From NCBI RefSeq assembly GCF_001306135.1, contig NZ_LGKP01000035.1, positions 248,001-312,000 on the forward strand: DNA of 64,000 nucleotides, in the 5' to 3' direction. Source of the DNA: Herpetosiphon geysericola (GTDB lineage: Bacteria > Chloroflexota > Chloroflexia > Chloroflexales > Herpetosiphonaceae). A program made the translations under genes and the position numbers. The notes below the pieces were generated by a model that worked only from the letters and a program-made list of their open reading frames with translations, searched no databases and was not told the origin of the DNA. Below, one piece after another: positions 12,235 through 61,268 of this stretch; within the stretch, counting starts at the first letter, position 1; each line of letters starts with the position of its first letter.

Positions 12235-12701
12235 AACGTGTATGCCTTAGTTTGTTCTTGCTCTTTTTAGTAAGCTGTGGCGGAGCAACGCCAACCAGCG
12301 TGCCTGTCACTGCCACAACTGCCGCCACCGCAACCACCGCAGCCAGCCCTGAGGTCTTGCTGACCTTTGCCCAAACCGGTGGCATCGCTGGCATCAACGA
12401 AACCCTCACTGTGTGGAGTGATGGTAAGTTGGAGCTTGCCAGCGTTAGTGCTGCAAGCACCTTACGCGTCGGCGAGGCCACGCCTGCGCAATTGAGTTCA
12501 ATTCAGACGCTGTTGAACGACCCTGAGTTTGCCAGCCTTGCAGCTAGCTATGGCGATTTAGGGAGTTGCTGCGATATGTTTAGCTATACGCTGACCACCG
12601 GCAATAAATCGATCGCCACCATTGATGGCGCTGAGTATCCAGAAATTCTGGCGAATTTGTTTGGCGAATTGCAAACCCTCAAGCAATCGATTCCGCAATA
12701 G
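12231..12701 (+). CDS. small lipoprotein coupled to the kinase
   Basis: A 156-residue protein with a lipoprotein signal: a short basic N-terminus, a hydrophobic core and a lipobox ending LVSC at Cys-16. A Thr/Ala/Val spacer (about 20-40) precedes a compact domain. Further Cys residues (CC near 116) could form a disulfide. I do not recognise the domain; it resembles other small conserved lipoproteins with no known activity. The ATGA overlap with the kinase suggests that it works with the kinase's outer domain, perhaps as a ligand or partner. That is inference from position only. Confidence 0.75.
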   Translation: MKRVCLSLFLLFLVSCGGATPTSVPVTATTAATATTAASPEVLLTFAQTGGIAGINETLTVWSDGKLELASVSAASTLRVGEATPAQLSSIQTLLNDPEFASLAASYGDLGSCCDMFSYTLTTGNKSIATIDGAEYPEILANLFGELQTLKQSIPQ

Positions 12702-12740
12702 GCTGCTCCTTACAAGGGTTGGTTTGTAATCAGCATCGTT

Positions 12741-12808
12741 GCTCACCACCCTTCCGTCCCGCCTCAAGCCGGGAGACGCAGGGGATTAAAGCCCCCTGCA
12801 CCCCCTAA
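12741..12808 (+). repeat. two-hairpin dispersed repeat, copy 1
   Basis: The shared core CACCCTTCCGTCCC is followed by a short GC-rich hairpin, then ACGCAGGGG, and then a second hairpin (GCAGGGG...CCCCTGC) ending CCCCCTAAA. Copies lie at 25741-25790 (opposite strand) and 61029-61096. This copy sits between two convergent genes. Confidence 0.75.
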
Positions 12809-12904
12809 AAAGGCAGTGCGTGGTGGTCAACTATCCAATTAATTAATCCGTTGTGTGCTCCATGGTTATCGCAGAACGCGATTAAAACCAATCTTCAAGG
12901 GGTT

Positions 12905-19455: not shown

Positions 19456-19461
19456 GTCAAT

Positions 19462-19730
19462 TCAAAGGGCAAAAATCAAAAGGCAGAAATAATTAACGCA
19501 GAGGATTTGAGTTCTTCAAACCTCTGCGCCGCTGCGTTAAAGAATTGATCCACGAAGGACACGAAGGGCACGAAGGGTCAGAAACCGCGAAGATCGCGAA
19601 GGTTAAGTTTTTTCGCCACAGCTTGGTTTGATGATGTTTCTCTGATCGTTCATCCCTCATCCTTCATCCTTCATCCTTTCGTAACTCTGCGCCTCTGCGT
19701 TAATCGTACTTCCCTAAATCATCGATAGCC
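19462..19730. repeat. mosaic intergenic repeat modules
   Basis: This 3' spacer contains, in order: a CAAAAATCAAAAGGC-type module; TTAACGCAGAGG and its inverted partner (19495-19542, a potential hairpin); a 9-nt-period CACGAAGG/GCGAAGAT array (19551-19600); CATCCCTCATCCTT units (19648-19680); and a further inverted CTCTGCGCCTCTGCGTTAA (19686-19704). No reading frame is supported. Confidence 0.8.
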
Positions 19731-23000: not shown

Positions 23001-25412
23001 GATGGCGTAACCGCCAATGATGCCAACGACAGCGATACCGGGCCAAACAACTTGCTCAACTATCCAATTGTCGAATCGACCAGCTCTGGTGGTGGCTTGA
23101 CTCAAATTGTGGGCTCGTATATTGGTGCACCAAATGCGGCCTTGACCCTTGATTTCTATGGTCAAGGCGCGTGCGACCCCAGCAACTTTGGCGAAGGTCA
23201 AACCTACATTGGCTCATACGCTATCAACACTGGGGCAACGGGCGCAATTTCCTACACCGCTAATTTGACCACGACTGTAGCTTTGGGCCAACGCGTGACT
23301 GCAACTGCGGTTGATGCCAACGGCAACACCTCGGAATTCTCACGCTGTTCGTCGGTTGGCAACTTGCCAAGCGTCAGCGTCAACGATGTAACGGTGGTCG
23401 AAGGCAATAGCGGCACGACCAACTTGAACTTTACCCTGAGTTTATCGGCGGTCAGTGCTAGCCCAGTGGTTGTCAGCTATGTAACCGCTGATGATACAGC
23501 GATTGCGCCAGCAGATTACACCGCTGCCAGCAGCACTGCCACGATTCCAGCCAATAGCTTGAGTGTGCCAGTTACAATTGAAGTTCATGGCGATACTCAA
23601 TTTGAACTCAACGAACGCTTCTTTATCAATTTGTTGAGCGCCACCAACGCGGCGATTGGCGATGGCCAAGGCATTGGCTCAATTACCAACGACGATAGCG
23701 CGCCAACAATTAGTGTGAATCCAGCCAGCGCCAATGAAGGCAGCGGTACGCCTGGCCAAATCAGCGTGCCTGTTACGCTTTCGAATGCCAGTTACTTGCC
23801 AATTAGCGTTGAATTTGTGACCAGCGATGGCACGGCGAGCGCTCCCAGCGACTACACCACAATTACGGGTACGCTTAATTTTGCCCCAGGCGAAACTAGC
23901 AAAACCATTGATATTGCCATCGTTGGCGATTTGATCGATGAGCTAGATGAAACGATCAACGTGGCGCTGAGCAATGCAGTCAACACCACGATTAGCAACG
24001 ATGAAGCAGTTGCCACGATTCTCGACGACGATGCAACGCCAGTGATCACTATTGCGAATGGCGAAGTGAGCGAAGGCAACAGCGGCAGCGTAACCGTGAC
24101 CCTCAACCTGAGCCTGAGCAACCCAAGCAGCAGCGTGATCACGGTTGATTATGCAACCGTTGCTGGCTCTGCAACCGCCAATGTTGATTTTACGACCAGC
24201 AATGGCTCGCTGAGCTTTGCCCCAGGCGAAACCAGCAAAACCATCGATGTCCAAGTGTTGGGCGATGTGCTTGACGAAGCTGACGAATCGTTTAGCGTGG
24301 AATTGAGCAATCCAACCAATGCCACTGCTGGCAGCGCTGGCACAGTCGTGATTCTTGATGATGATGCAGCGCCAATGCTCGATATTACTGGCTTCCCAGT
24401 GCTTGAAGGTAATACTGGCAGCAAGCCTTTGACCGTGACGGCGACGCTTTCGGCAGTCAGCGGCCAAGTTGTGACCGTGCATTACGCCACCTTCGACAAC
24501 ACTGCAACCGCTGGCAGCGACTATATGGCGATCAGCGGAACCTTGACGATTCCCGCAGGTCAATTGAGCCAAAACATTTTTGTGAATGTTAATGGCGATC
24601 TGATCGACGAAAGCAACGAAACCTTTACGATCACTGCCAGCAACCCGCAAAATGCGAGCTTGTTGAACTCCAATGCAATTGGCACGATTCTCGATGACGA
24701 TGGTGCGCCAACGATCAACGCCAACGCCATCAGCGTCCCCGAAGGCGATGCCAACAGCGTCAATGCAACCTTCAATGTCAGCCTATCCAACCCTAGCGCA
24801 ACCGCTGTTACCGTCAACTATTCAACCACAGCGGGCACAGCAACTAGCGGCACCGACTTTACGCCAACTGCTGGCACGTTAAACTTTGCGCCAGGCGAAT
24901 TGACCAAAACGGTAACCGTCGTAGTGCTTGGCGATCTCTTGGATGAGGCCGATGAAAGCTTTACCCTTGTGCTGAGCAGCGCAACTGGCGGCGCAACCAT
25001 CGGCACATCTGGCACAGCCACAATTGTTGATAACGACCCAACGCCAAGTGTGGCTTTGAGCGGCCTCAACAGCGTGATTGAAGGCAGTGGCATCACCACA
25101 ACCTTAAAATTCACCGTGACGCTTTCGACGGCCAGCGGTCGGGCAAGCAGTGTACAAGTAGCCACCACTGCGGGCACTGCCAGCGCTGGCAGCGACTTCG
25201 TTGGCCAAAATCTGACTCTCAACTTTGCTGCTGGCGAAACCCAAAAAGTGGTCAGCATTGCAATTGTTGGCGATCGGGTTAAAGAGCCAAACGAAACCTT
25301 TAGCGTTGGGCTGAGCAACCCAAGCAACCTCACGCTTGGCACAGCCAGCATCGAAGTCACGATTATCGATGACGATGAATGGATGGTCTATTTGCCATAC
25401 GTGGTCAAATAA
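20019..25412 (+). CDS. giant secreted beta-helix / Calx-beta surface protein
   Basis: A 1797-residue secreted protein with a signal peptide at about 1-41 (RRR then a Leu-rich core). Residues 55-470 form a first right-handed beta-helix that opens with SLRAAL. Residues about 480-1000 form a second, opening with CSLREAITLAN and built from NosD-like turns such as NVISGN, GNYIGT, ALGNS and IGGTT. Six Calx-beta domains of about 112 residues follow (about 1118-1790). Each begins near an EG(N/S)SG motif and ends in a DDD/NDD linker, so they could bind calcium. The chain ends WMVYLPYVVK, a tail shared with another secreted protein here. It probably acts as an adhesin or matrix protein on the filament surface. 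Confidence 0.9.
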   Translation: MLQSPDQGRTVQSQVRRRALVLNLALLLALFGLPLQPTAARIAAPQLPEARSASAPTAVCTVTNTSDAASPPAGSLRAALANATCSPIVFDPSLAGQTITLTAELSVARVVVIDGAAAPGLKIDGNNSVRLFNVTATSANLALYNLTLQRGKAPNTGIANGGAVLNQGGTVVISNTAVLSNTAGTSGNGGAIRNQRTSGIAGVLRVYNSVIMGNTAPSNGGAFSTSGSITTIVNSAVLSNTLTSTSGGITSGSGLGAGIHHVNIQNPPANLTTAITNTTIAYNRGKAGAAIYNDNNGIIDVYYSTIVYNAASNSSGSIVGGVVNGVTTAGQPGLRLSLYNTIVANNTQRAANTTLTSADVGVGTGQTISSNGYNLIETVPSGAVFSGSTASNITGQDPAIGDVQNNGGGTPTAAVLQNSPAYNAGDPAPIGLPATDQRGPGFVRVREGRLDIGAFEASNSVQSSPILVSTNLDTNDGACTTFNCSLREAITLANSTPQTDTIRFNLLGSGVRTISPTAALPAITAPVILDGLSQAGAACNAPLIELNGSLAGANVNGLEVTGGNSLIRGLVINRFTGNGVRLATLGGNTLECNFIGTDPSGTVDAGNGLSGVRVESANTLIGGSSGSNVRNLIAGNDGDGITLVAGANATTIQNNYIGTSLNSNAALGNSKSGVRIGSDNNQVGGAFGTLGNIISGNVEHGVLVNVSSAPLGNRIQGNFIGTNIGATLDIGNSQRGVFIDRSANTLVGGTTAERNVISGNNSDGVAIIEAGATNNKISGNYIGTNNGGGSALGNSSAGVYIFNVGGNTIGGTTTAERNLISANSNGIVIGGGSAIGNIIKGNYIGTTLNGNAALGNVSDGIKLDGARNTQIGGLTIGERNVISGNGNNGINIFTTSSAANVIQGNYIGTNAFVAPASPTGVANQFNGVRVAAGTTTTIGGSAQGAGNVIAFNAKNGVLITQGSAVATTQRIQRNSIFSNNRLGIDLGPDNNANGDGVTANDANDSDTGPNNLLNYPIVESTSSGGGLTQIVGSYIGAPNAALTLDFYGQGACDPSNFGEGQTYIGSYAINTGATGAISYTANLTTTVALGQRVTATAVDANGNTSEFSRCSSVGNLPSVSVNDVTVVEGNSGTTNLNFTLSLSAVSASPVVVSYVTADDTAIAPADYTAASSTATIPANSLSVPVTIEVHGDTQFELNERFFINLLSATNAAIGDGQGIGSITNDDSAPTISVNPASANEGSGTPGQISVPVTLSNASYLPISVEFVTSDGTASAPSDYTTITGTLNFAPGETSKTIDIAIVGDLIDELDETINVALSNAVNTTISNDEAVATILDDDATPVITIANGEVSEGNSGSVTVTLNLSLSNPSSSVITVDYATVAGSATANVDFTTSNGSLSFAPGETSKTIDVQVLGDVLDEADESFSVELSNPTNATAGSAGTVVILDDDAAPMLDITGFPVLEGNTGSKPLTVTATLSAVSGQVVTVHYATFDNTATAGSDYMAISGTLTIPAGQLSQNIFVNVNGDLIDESNETFTITASNPQNASLLNSNAIGTILDDDGAPTINANAISVPEGDANSVNATFNVSLSNPSATAVTVNYSTTAGTATSGTDFTPTAGTLNFAPGELTKTVTVVVLGDLLDEADESFTLVLSSATGGATIGTSGTATIVDNDPTPSVALSGLNSVIEGSGITTTLKFTVTLSTASGRASSVQVATTAGTASAGSDFVGQNLTLNFAAGETQKVVSIAIVGDRVKEPNETFSVGLSNPSNLTLGTASIEVTIIDDDEWMVYLPYVVK

Positions 25413-25500: not shown

Positions 25501-25655
25501 GATGGGATTCGGTTGTTGAGGTCGGATAAACGGGAACCGCAACGGTCGCGAAGAGCACGAAGTTTGAGATCGGGGATTGGGCGCTGGAGGTCGGGTGTTG
25601 GGGTCGGATAAACGGGAACCGCGAAGAGCGCGAAGAGCACGAAGGGGAGAAGGCT
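25501..25655. repeat. mosaic intergenic repeat with 20-nt direct repeat
   Basis: The 20-mer GTCGGATAAACGGGAACCGC occurs at 25521 and 25603, each time next to GCGAAGAGCACGAAG units of 9-nt period. The intervening text has GGGGATTGG / GTTGGGG strings also seen near 40331. Confidence 0.75.
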
Positions 25656-25740
25656 CTTGGCTATCGGAAAATCATCGGGTTTAGCAACAGATGGTTGGCA
25701 CAGCACGCGATACGGATCACCAGCCCCTGACCCCTCGTAC

Positions 25741-25790
25741 AAAACCCCTGCGTCTCCCGCCTTGAGGCGGGACGGAAGGGTGGTGAGCAT
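25741..25790 (-). repeat. two-hairpin dispersed repeat, copy 2
   Basis: On the minus strand it matches copy 1 for about 45 bases, from GCTCACCACCC to ACGCAGGGG. Its first hairpin is perfect: TCCCGCC-TTGA-GGCGGGA on the plus strand. The second hairpin is not conserved here. Confidence 0.75.
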
Positions 25791-40330: not shown

Positions 40331-40515
40331 TTGGGGATTCGGTTGTTGGAGGTTGGGCATCAGGGGCTGGGTTTTAACGCAGAGGCGCAGAGATTATGCG
40401 TGGCTGAAATACGTGTTGGATTTGGCAAGGGATAATAGGCTAGCAGAAGTTACCGACCTCCAATCCCCGACAACCAAATATTGTTATGTTCTATGCTCTC
40501 TGTTCTATACTCTAA
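40331..40515. repeat. mosaic intergenic repeat modules between lysA and dnaG
   Basis: The spacer contains GGGGATTCGGTTGTTGG, TTTTAACGCAGAGGCGCAGAG (40377-40396), CCAATCCCCGACAACC, and TATGTTCTATGCTCTCTGTTC (40486-40506). No gene is supported. Confidence 0.75.
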
Positions 40516-43689: not shown

Positions 43690-43850
43690 ATTAACCACGA
43701 AGAGCACGAAGAATACGAAGCAATCATCTCTTTGCGCGCTTCGCGTTCTTCGTGGTTAAAAAATCTCGTCGGTTACTCCCAATCCCCAGCCCCCATCAAC
43801 CAATCCCCAATCTATGTTCTATGCTCTTTGTTCTATGCTCTTTTGATGGC
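43690..43850. repeat. mosaic repeat with inverted CGAAG module pair
   Basis: TTAACCACGAAGAGCACGAAG (43690) pairs with CTTCGCGTTCTTCGTGGTTAA (about 43738-43758) to form a long imperfect hairpin 12 bases after the rpoD stop. CCCCAGCCCCC and TATGTTCTATGCTCTTTG modules follow. Confidence 0.8.
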
Positions 43851-46977: not shown

Positions 46978-46984
46978 GGGTGAA

Positions 46985-47265
46985 CAACGAAGATATTTTT
47001 AACCACGAAGAACACGAAGGGACACGAAGCGCCGAAACCGTGAAGATCGCGAAGATCACGAAGAATTCTTTTTTTGCCACAGATTCCCACAGATTTTTTG
47101 GATTATGTTCCTGCTAGCCCAAAGCTCATCCTCTATCCTTATGTTCTATGTTCTTTTCTGCCTTTTGACCTTTGACTTTTAGGGTTCTGTTCCTGCTCCC
47201 CGATAGCCTATAGACTCATTTTTAATTTCTGCCTTCTGCCTTTTGACTTTTGACTTTTGACTTTA
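46985..47265. repeat. mosaic intergenic repeat modules
   Basis: AACCACGAAGAACACGAAGG with GCGAAGATC units (47001-47065), a TTGCCACAGATTCCCACAGA module, TTATGTTCTATGTTC, and two TTCTGCCTTTTGAC/TTTTGAC arrays (47156-47181 and 47227-47264). Confidence 0.75.
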
Positions 47266-50119: not shown

Positions 50120-50650
50120 AGACCAGAACAGAGAGCATAGAACAGAGAGCATAGAACATAAGCGAAGGATGAGGGATGAGGGATGAGGGATGAAAAGCAG
50201 AAGTCAAAAGGCAAAATGGGAAGCCGAATTATGGGCTAGAGGGCAGTATTTTAACGCAGAGGCGCAGAGAATGAGAGGCTATGGGCTATGGGCTTTTGGC
50301 TATCGGAATATTATTTGGGGAGAAAAAGGATTTGTATTTAACGCAGAGAAATAATGGCTATAAGCTATAGGCTTTTGGCTATCGGAATATTATTTGGGGA
50401 GAAAAAGGATTTGTATTTAACGCAGAGGCGCAGAGGAACGATGGCTATGGGCTATGGGAATTTAATCTGAGCAATCTGTGGCTAAAAATTATTCTTCGTA
50501 GCTCAATAGTTAAGCGTATCGCTAAATTGCTATGTTCTTTGCTCTCTGTTCTTCGTACCCTTCGCGATCTTCGCGATCTTCGCCGTTAAATTCCTATGCT
50601 CTATGCTCTTTGCTCTATGTTCTGGCTTTCATCCCTCATCCTTCATCCTT
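50120..50650. repeat. large mosaic intergenic repeat block
   Basis: The block contains AGAACAGAGAGCATAG units (50122-50160), GATGAGGGATGAGG units (50166-50190), CAAAAGGCAAAA, TTAACGCAGAGGCGCAGAG (50251), GCTATGGGCTATGGG units, CTTCGCGATCTTCGCGATC (50568) and TATGCTCTATGCTCTTTG (50597). Inside it a 58-base string is repeated exactly at 50291-50348 and 50370-50427. No gene is supported in the 650 bases. Confidence 0.85.
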
Positions 50651-50692
50651 AAAAAAACACCCCAGCCCTGAGCACATGCCAGAACTGGGGTG
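50651..50692 (-). terminator. intrinsic terminator of korAB
   Basis: CACCCCAG (50658-50665) pairs with CTGGGGTG (50685-50692); on the minus strand the stem is followed by seven T (A-run 50651-50657 on plus). Confidence 0.85.
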
Positions 50693-54039: not shown

Positions 54040-54364
54040 AGTAGCAAATAAAGGCAAAAGTCAGAAGGCAAAAATCAAAATAGCAGCCAGAGGAATTGAT
54101 AAGGATTAATTGATCCAGGAAGGGCCACGAAGGACACGAAGAACGCGAAGGTATGTTTAGCCACAGCTTGGCACAGATTCGGAGAATTAGGCTTTTAACT
54201 TCATCCCTCATCCCTCATCCTTCATAATTTCGTGGCTCTGCGCCTCTGCGGTAAAAGCGAGCCTTTTTAGCCACCAAATACTATTCCGATAGCCTCGTCC
54301 CTGCTTCCTGACCCCTAGCCCCTGAATCCTCAATAACTATGCTCTATGCTCTTTGTTCTATGTT
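54040..54364. repeat. mosaic intergenic repeat modules
   Basis: AAAGTCAGAAGGCAAAAATC (54058), CCACGAAGGACACGAAGAACGCGAAGG units (54124-54150), GCCACAGCTTGGCACAGATT, CATCCCTCATCCCTCATCC (54203), CTCTGCGCCTCTGCGG (54235), CCCCTAGCCCCTGAA and TATGCTCTATGCTCTTTG (54339). The last module runs into the Uma2 stop codon. Confidence 0.78.
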
Positions 54365-54928
54365 CTAAATTTTGGCATAAACTTCTTGCACCGTAAGCAT
54401 ACATTGAATTGAGCGTAATTCCAGCACCGCTTGCGGATCGTTGATTTCGCTTAAAAGCCATTGATTGGCTGCCTGACGACTATAATGCTCAATATGATAG
54501 GGATCTTGCGAAACTAAGAGATATTCGCGTAACGATGGAATTTGGCGATAATGCTGAAATTTTCGGCCCCGGTCATAGTGCTCAGTTGAGGGTGAAAGCA
54601 CTTCAATAATCAGCGTGGGGTTGAGCAAGGTATCTTGATGGCTATCGTCAAACCAGGTTTCGCCACACACAACCGAGACATCAGGATAGGTATACAAGCC
54701 TGTAGCCGAGATTTTGATGCGGAGATCGCTGGGGAAAACTGTACAAGAACGTTGCTTTAACTGGCTATGCAATTCAGCAATCAAATTGGCCACAATCAGA
54801 TTATGGTTGCGGCTCGCGCCAGCCAAGGCATAAACCAGCCCATTCAAAAATTCATGTTTGGTAGGGCTGGTTCGCTCACCAGCCAAATATTCCTCAATTG
54901 TCATTGGGCTAATTGATTCGGCACTCAT
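54365..54928 (-). CDS. Uma2 family (DUF820) putative restriction-like nuclease
   Basis: A 187-residue protein of the widespread Uma2 family, which has a PD-(D/E)xK nuclease-like core. Visible are MTIEEYLAGERTSPTKHEFLNGLVY, FPSDLRIKI, YPDVSVVCG and LIIEVLSPSTEHYDRGRK, which supply the Asp, Glu and Lys of the core. I favour the ATG at 54928; an in-frame ATG at 54967 is possible but has no ribosome-binding site. The family's biological role is unsettled. The stop TAG comes from the adjoining repeat module. Confidence 0.85.
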   Translation of the reverse strand: MSAESISPMTIEEYLAGERTSPTKHEFLNGLVYALAGASRNHNLIVANLIAELHSQLKQRSCTVFPSDLRIKISATGLYTYPDVSVVCGETWFDDSHQDTLLNPTLIIEVLSPSTEHYDRGRKFQHYRQIPSLREYLLVSQDPYHIEHYSRQAANQWLLSEINDPQAVLELRSIQCMLTVQEVYAKI

Positions 54929-59114: not shown

Positions 59115-59132
59115 GTAGCCTGTGTTGAGTTT

Positions 59133-59374
59133 TCAACGCAGCGGCGCAGAGGGTTAAAGTTTAGGCTCTTGGCTGAAGTAGCGGCAAATCTACCAAGCCA
59201 AGAGCCTTTTGATCCACGAAGGGCTGAAACCGCGAAGAACACGAAGCGCACGAAGGGCTGAAACCGCGAAGAACACGAAAGGCGCGAAGGTTAAGTTTTT
59301 AGCCACGAATTCCACGAATTATTTAATTTCATCCCTCATCCTTTATTTGTTCTATGCTCTCTGTTCTATGTTCT
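59133..59374. repeat. mosaic repeat modules around the catalase terminator
   Basis: CAACGCAGCGGCGCAGAGG (59135), the terminator, then GATCCACGAAGGGCTGAAACCGCGAAG units (59211-59290), CCACGAATTCCACGAATT (59303), CATCCCTCATCC (59331) and TATGCTCTCTGTTCTATGTTC (59352). The last lies inside the 3' end of the membrane-protein gene. Confidence 0.78.
59164..59211 (+). terminator. intrinsic terminator after catalase
   Basis: Eleven-base perfect arms 59164-59174 and 59196-59206 enclose an inner GTAG/CTAC stem and are followed by TTTT. Confidence 0.85.
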
Positions 59375-60813: not shown

Positions 60814-61028
60814 AGCACCTCCCGCGTATTGAGCTTGCTTAACTATTGGCTAGTTTAGCGGTCACAATATTGCTTGTGATGGCTATTTGGGCCTAGGCCG
60901 CTTATGCCGAAAGAACTAGCGTGATTCTCGCTTGATAACGCTAGACGATTCATAGCATGGCTTGGTACTATTGGATGGACATGAATAGTGGTTTTTCAAC
61001 ATGGAAGTGGGTTTCGATCGATCAAGGT

Positions 61029-61096
61029 TCGCCACCCTTCCGTCCCTCCGCCGGAGGGAAACGCAGGGGGCTTTAATCCCCCTGCATCCCCTAAAG
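61029..61096 (+). repeat. two-hairpin dispersed repeat, copy 3
   Basis: CCACCCTTCCGTCCCTCC, then the hairpin CCCTCC/GGAGGG, ACGCAGGGGG, and a second perfect hairpin (GCAGGGGG with CCCCCTGC) ending CCCCTAAAG. The first stem differs from the other copies by a compensated base pair. The remaining 60814-61335 spacer holds only the promoter below. Confidence 0.78.
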
Positions 61097-61268
61097 GACG
61101 ATTGTTGAATGCTAGGCATAGTGCGATAAGCTTAAAATGTGTGGGTTTGCATTCATTGAAAATCCATTCGTTTGCGCGATGAGCGTGGGGTTAGGCTGAA
61201 GGAAGCCGGTTGTAATCGGCCTAACTGCTAACAGGATATTAGAAATTAGCGGTTAACGGTTGATTATC

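Follow-up and report, generated by a model that had tools for sequence, protein, structure and literature searches.

The closest known counterparts of the repeats examined in the present study are MITEs with a structured interior, including Correia/NEMIS, RUP, ERIC and QMITE2 of Coxiella. In the available parts of the source papers (PMC2229807, PMC10969869) these are short, gene-free and intergenic elements with terminal inverted repeats, target duplications and a stable fold of the whole element, features that are shared by the elements described here. GTAG- and CGTC-tagged REPs also resemble our repeats, as high-copy intergenic GC-rich hairpins with CGTC at the foot of the stem. According to the accessible portion of PMC3733652, a CGTC-tagged REP has a stem of 8-9 bp in which the first and second pairs are A-T, with the CGTC tag unpaired, and Chloroflexota are not among the CGTC-REP phyla listed there. 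When inverted repeats undergo template switching, the known signature is loop inversion with homogenised arms, as set out in the portions of PMC8604942 and PMC8794818 that were available.

A total of three copies of a two-hairpin element were examined in the window, i.e. the whole 64,000-nt stretch of Herpetosiphon geysericola DNA analysed here. We estimate a probability of roughly 0.8 that these copies are parts of a gene-free, intergenic MITE family, in which the two-hairpin core is interior to two MITE types; that it has retained its pairing largely through template switching is less certain. The copies lie where the first-pass annotation had placed them, with CACCCTTCCGTCCC present exactly at 12747-12760 (+), 25769-25782 (-) and 61033-61046 (+), followed in every copy by a hairpin and then by ACGCAGGGG. 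Allowing up to two mismatches, CACCCTTCCGTCCC has 3 matches in the window, against a mean of 0.26 in shuffled sequences, 0 of 100 of which reached three. The features assigned to the copies are as follows, with types defined below.

12709..12899, plus strand: copy 1, an old full-length type B MITE of 191 bp, identified from its sequence and aligned with 29 other full-length copies
12709-12726 (CTTACAAGGGTTGGTTTG) and about 12884-12899 (AAAACCAATCTTCAAG), plus strand: terminal inverted repeats of copy 1, which was included by eye
12742..12811, plus strand: two-hairpin core of copy 1 (covariance model R1, 82.5 bits)
12758-12763/12768-12773 and 12778-12784/12793-12799, plus strand: stem 1 (one pair broken) and stem 2 of copy 1
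12785-12791, plus strand: stem-2 loop ATTAAAG of copy 1, the reverse complement of the common loop CTTTAAT
25732..25787, minus strand: copy 2, a truncated core with stem 1 intact and stem 2 cut off (model R1, 44.9 bits)
61028..61097, plus strand: copy 3, whose diverged core has a 3-nt loop (model R1, 80.2 bits)
61044-61049/61053-61058 and 61063-61070/61078-61085, plus strand: stem 1 and stem 2 of copy 3

Stem 1 reads CCCGCC/GGCGGG in copy 2 and CCCTCC/GGAGGG in copy 3, as previously annotated, but CCCGCC/GCCGGG in copy 1, where one of the six pairs is broken (C.C), a mismatch that the annotation had left out. Stem 2 (GCAGGGG/CCCCTGC) is kept in copies 1 and 3, again as claimed, and copy 2 ends inside it. 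Fold z-scores were -2.63, -2.43 and -2.62 for copies 1, 2 and 3, respectively. Similarity of copy 1 to genomic copies spans 12706-12838; no target duplication is recognisable at its flanks, and the copy is missing at the syntenic site of the sister genome G003. Copy 2 is joined to right-hand sequence also found in two other H. geysericola copies (L003 and L171), and the core is truncated at the orthologous place in G003 too. The site of copy 3, around which terminal repeats were not recognised, is common to H. geysericola and G003. Elsewhere in the window, many intergenic stretches (19459-19703, 25509-25646, 40351-40513, 43690-43841, 46979-47263, 50132-50655, 54047-54366 and 59131-59374) form mosaics built from other dispersed families (CACGAAGGACACGAAGG, TTTAACGCAGAGGCGCAGAG, TATGTTCTATGCTCT, TTCATCCCTCATCC and TTTTGACTTTTGACTTT), and a coding-like segment at 23670-25302 (families D5, D8 and D14), rich in GATGA/GACGA and with a repeat period of ~336 bp (112 codons), looks like a tandem-domain surface protein.

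Exact CACCCTTCCGTCCC occurs 139 times in the H. geysericola genome (66 on the plus and 73 on the minus strand), with no occurrence of the reversed control, and the covariance model matches at least 150 copies, a lower bound as 150 candidates were scored. Across 41 genomes searched with stricter filters, model matches were obtained in all six Herpetosiphon genomes, in two of the three other genomes of the Herpetosiphon family (1 and 38 copies) and in none of 32 genomes from other families of the same order. Named Herpetosiphon contigs also contain CACCCTTCCGTCCC. A full-length copy (L318) had no match among 50,697 phage and 72,556 plasmid records, on which ground a phage or plasmid element was rejected; a 17-nt piece of the core is present in five viral contigs, yet no element was matched by the model in the segments of these contigs that were examined, nor in nine unrelated sequence matches. 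Head-to-tail arrays of nearly identical units with a period of 225-233 bp were observed at G000:C5:86246-86725, where the units are of type T and have CCTACCCCC junctions in common, and at G000:C13:41409-41871.

A longer unit around the double hairpin was revealed by the copies of H. aurantiacus. This unit, type B, is ~180 bp long and comprises CTTWCAAGGGTAGGTTTT, ~20 nt, the core, ~40 nt, a GAACCA/TGGTTC hairpin and then AAAACCTACCCTTGWAAG, so that 18-bp terminal inverted repeats enclose a pair of GC-rich hairpins (71 nt) followed by a third hairpin. Both ends were found in 36 of 185 distinct copies (≤4 mismatches at each end). Exact flanking repeats are present in six of these 36, always of 11 bp and at no other length from 5 to 14, and the 11-bp flanks of eight match at ≥9 of 11 positions, compared to a mean of 0.885 and a maximum of 4 when flanks were re-paired. 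With the target halves rejoined, three of the six junctions match uninterrupted target repeats elsewhere; the other 30 copies, including copy 1 of the window, have no exact 11-bp duplication. Terminal inverted repeats, a target duplication of fixed length, the lack of genes and many intergenic copies identify type B as a MITE, probably moved by a DDE-type transposase. No autonomous relative with the same ends was present among the pattern matches listed or the DDE_Tnp_1 loci, and a search of a large subfamily with TAATATTT-like right ends for ends and target duplications found none. The terminal repeats behave like DNA ends, unlike an RNA helix. At the fourth position, where A or T occurs on either side, the bases pair in 18 of 29 rows and are unpaired in 11. 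This position is the best candidate for compensation in an outer stem, and double changes over the whole structure did not exceed those of shuffles (as high in 137 and 61 of 500), so that an outer stem acting as an RNA helix was rejected.

The same core lies inside a second MITE, type T, which has ends TGTAHTGGTTYAT and 6-bp duplications. One copy (G000:C12:390142) is a ~220-bp insertion absent from G003, with ends TGTACTGGTTCAT.../...ATGAACCAATACA, GTTACA flanks and a clean empty site. Among 28 distinct terminal-repeat pairs of this type (from 29 rows, one place being present twice), an exact 6-bp duplication was found in 16, and the double hairpin is missing from 17, so the hairpins are a passenger in type T. 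The ends match those of an IS481-family element of the H. geysericola genome (TGTAATGGTTCATAGCATTAACAACC versus TGTAATGGTTCATCACATTAACCACC), one copy of which is 988 bp long, frameshifted and has HTH and rve_3 domains (L149:2787-3774). The halves of its transposase match rve_3 and NCBIfam IS481 (NF033577), the latter being the best match of both, below the cut-off of that model because the gene is split, and two H. geysericola contig ends stop 126 bp inside further IS481-like copies. Common ends, target duplication and empty site together mark type T as an IS481-derived MITE, and the transposase of this element, whose ends it matches, would have moved it. To the right of the core, type T copies retain type B sequence, and in two of them (L154 and L236) the arms of type B are both present within type T ends. 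The simplest reading would be nesting of B in T and subsequent amplification, type T having presumably acquired its core through insertion of a type B element.

Type T MITEs are often inserted in TCTATG repeats. A TGTA-bounded locus of 1561 bp (L346, G000:C43:282544-284104) was considered as an autonomous type T parent and rejected, as it proved to be a MITE interrupted by an IS4-like insertion sequence. The latter (1309-1313 bp, DDE_Tnp_1, ends GTTTAAGGGCGGACA) sits in GC-rich hairpins of dispersed palindromes: the H. geysericola copy lies in stem 1 of the two-hairpin core with a 9-bp duplication, and 16 of 16 H. aurantiacus copies (loci among L372-L397) lie in the CCCTCACCCC...GGGGTGAGGG repeat, an exact 8-bp duplication being present at 10 of them. 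A comparison is offered by insertion sequences with REPs as their targets, described in the available part of PMC1525189.

The first-pass annotation had taken the change between CCCGCC/GGCGGG and CCCTCC/GGAGGG as compensation indicative of a conserved structure, to be checked for covariation with a covariance model, and to be refuted by a larger alignment in which the stems are broken as often as they are kept. We aligned 144 matches from 98 sources, giving 113 distinct rows and 1550 cells. In this alignment, which was fitted to the tested structure, 96.4% of cells are paired, compared to 91.6 ± 0.3% in shuffles, 0 of 500 of which were as high; the invariance of the core is partly by construction because most copies were first found through the exact 14-nt core. 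Changes on both sides were seen at five of 14 pairs (48 cells), against a shuffle mean of 13.1 and at most 4 in slid versions. Covariation is real, but thin: 35 of the 48 cells represent one GC-to-UA pair change carried by the 3-nt-loop subfamily, and the remainder comprise six GC-to-AU, three AU-to-CG, two AU-to-UA and two single cells. Broken cells number 56, including 15 that derive from one C.A mismatch spread with a successful, much-amplified subfamily. The earlier claim consequently holds in that pairing covaries above both controls, but not in its functional sense, with 48 doubly changed cells, mostly one inherited change, set against 56 broken ones, which by cell counts comes close to the refuting outcome. 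Compensation is thus weak evidence of function.

A second route to paired changes is suggested by the loops. Stem-2 loops of 7 nt between GGGGG and CCCCC (n = 160) read CTTTAAT in 91 copies and the reverse complement ATTAAAG in three, and copy 1 of the window also has an ATTAAAG loop, with a shorter arm. The two sequences differ at three positions, no single-step intermediate was present among the 160, and the backgrounds of ATTAAAG differ (type T and type B in H. geysericola, H. aurantiacus). Stem-1 loops show changes of the same kind, with TTGA for TCAA in one copy and GGC for GCC in two, the latter one base apart only, and a further copy with a changed arm has the loop ATTTAAT (L009). The inverted loops, few in number, point to template switching during replication. 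Template switching yields paired changes without selection, and compensation alone therefore does not show that the hairpins function. The hairpins may have stayed paired largely in this way, one arm being copied onto the other and the loop sometimes inverted.

Comparison of orthologous sites indicates that the family is mobile, though not fast. Fifteen H. geysericola copies compared with syntenic G003 sequence included 10 shared, four absent and one unanchored, and the reciprocal comparison of 17 G003 copies gave 10 shared, three absent and four unanchored. Over all ten orthologous pairs the core had 20/669 differences versus 178/1903 in adjacent sequence (p = 1e-8), a signal that we do not take as selection because arrays, in which three of the ten pairs lie, can be mispaired or converted. 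In five clean single-copy pairs, chosen after all ten had been seen (first in the list, single-copy and with short flank gaps except one), the core differed at 13/334 positions (3.9%) and the adjacent 200 nt at 53/1000 (5.3%; p = 0.38). Slow evolution of the core was accordingly rejected, the clean cores not being significantly more conserved than their flanks. The apparent conservation of the core may reflect the relative youth of its copies and their spread in bursts, rather than a function of each copy.

None of 146 placed copies (two of 148 were skipped) falls within a gene as predicted by a codon-score script rather than a gene finder, and 10 lie at locus edges. Gene contexts differ between insertion sites, in agreement with the first-pass annotation. 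The 82 collapsed H. geysericola sites comprise 19 convergent, 13 divergent, 33 tandem antisense and 17 tandem sense. Convergent gaps are in excess (19/82 versus 12.7% expected, p = 0.006), and 33 of the 50 tandem gaps have the element antisense to the genes on both sides (one-sided p = 0.016), both values being uncorrected for several tests. These biases fit insertion tolerated where it is least harmful and leave room for an effect on transcripts; the strand bias in tandem gaps (33 opposite, 17 same) is not predicted by a pure passenger model. The spacer behind the same gene was compared between the window (12700-12900) and G001-G005; it is occupied by the MITE in the window, by a tandem CCCTCACCCC palindrome in G003, and in other species by hairpins resembling ordinary terminators.

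Selection on the hairpins could take two forms, both of which we regard as unlikely. A putative structured RNA or terminator-like element, mobile but kept by selection at gene ends, would account for covariation above controls, for the convergent excess with fewer divergent sites, for the antisense bias and for ordinary terminators of relatives at the copy 1 site, and the ten-pair rate difference would favour it as well. That difference vanishes in the five clean pairs, however, one of the most amplified subfamilies carries a stem-breaking mismatch, no U-run follows the hairpins, and copies are commonly orphaned, truncated or replaced by other repeats. Rfam yielded 0 matches in the window at the gathering threshold, and a known RNA family was rejected on this basis. 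Alternatively, the core might be a functional module, acting as DNA cruciform or RNA in transposition or for the host, whose pairing is selected while the remainder decays and which is carried by two unrelated transposition systems (11-bp and 6-bp duplications); we give this a similarly low likelihood.

Still less probable, in our view, are two readings that concern the unit of movement. Mobilisation as a REP/REPIN-type element by a Y1 tyrosine transposase (RAYT) would be in keeping with high-copy intergenic GC-rich hairpins and with CGTC at the 5' foot of stem 1, as in CGTC-tagged REPs, which lack a known transposase in the accessible part of PMC3733652. The stem here is 6 bp of GC, however, without the A-T pairs at the foot of CGTC REPs and with the last C of CGTC inside the stem, and the element has the terminal inverted repeats and target duplications of a MITE, the latter already contradicting this reading, which was rejected. 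The first-pass annotation had suggested looking for a REP-type transposase. The single Y1_Tnp of the H. geysericola genome (L208, G000:C44:236137) is of IS605 type and decayed, its TnpA interrupted by one internal TGA and the TnpB-like gene behind it divided between frames, and no element lies next to it. Equally remote is the prospect that the 71-nt core moves on its own and has entered several other repeats. Classes with different outer sequence have the core, and its left edge is sharp at TTCRC|CACCC in 100 copies, but these were picked by exact core, which makes the invariance one of construction; moreover, the type B sequence in type T, and both B arms in L154 and L236, fit nesting, and the core is flanked by a duplication in no class.

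A MITE family with an interior core shared by types B and T, the reading that we prefer, is ordinary in kind. We found no Herpetosiphon MITE described in the available parts of the literature searched, genome papers included. Two MITE families are thereby defined for Herpetosiphon, their ends and target duplications measured, and for one of them the same genome contains a transposase source. The family also illustrates how misleading a compensatory base-pair change can be when it occurs in a dispersed repeat, as paired changes can arise in one step without selection on RNA, and large dispersed families of such hairpins could serve to measure template switching.

Compared to Correia/NEMIS, RUP, ERIC and QMITE2, as far as these are covered by the available parts of PMC2229807 and PMC10969869, the elements described here are distinguished by a GC-rich double-hairpin interior, their occurrence in Herpetosiphonaceae, and one core shared by two MITE types that differ in the length of their duplications (11 and 6 bp). 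From the GTAG- and CGTC-tagged REPs, on the accessible account (PMC3733652), they differ in having no RAYT, long terminal repeats, duplications and two unlike hairpins in tandem. Template-switch footprints in hairpins, in the portions of PMC8794818 and PMC8604942 available, likewise include compensating changes, inverted loops and arms that are kept, whereas here these occur in a dispersed mobile repeat. Type T is like the IS481 family (NF033577) and its MITEs in its ends, TGT termini and 6-bp duplications, and differs in that the IS481 copy found here has a frameshift, that contig ends interrupt the further copies, and that the MITE carries a foreign core.
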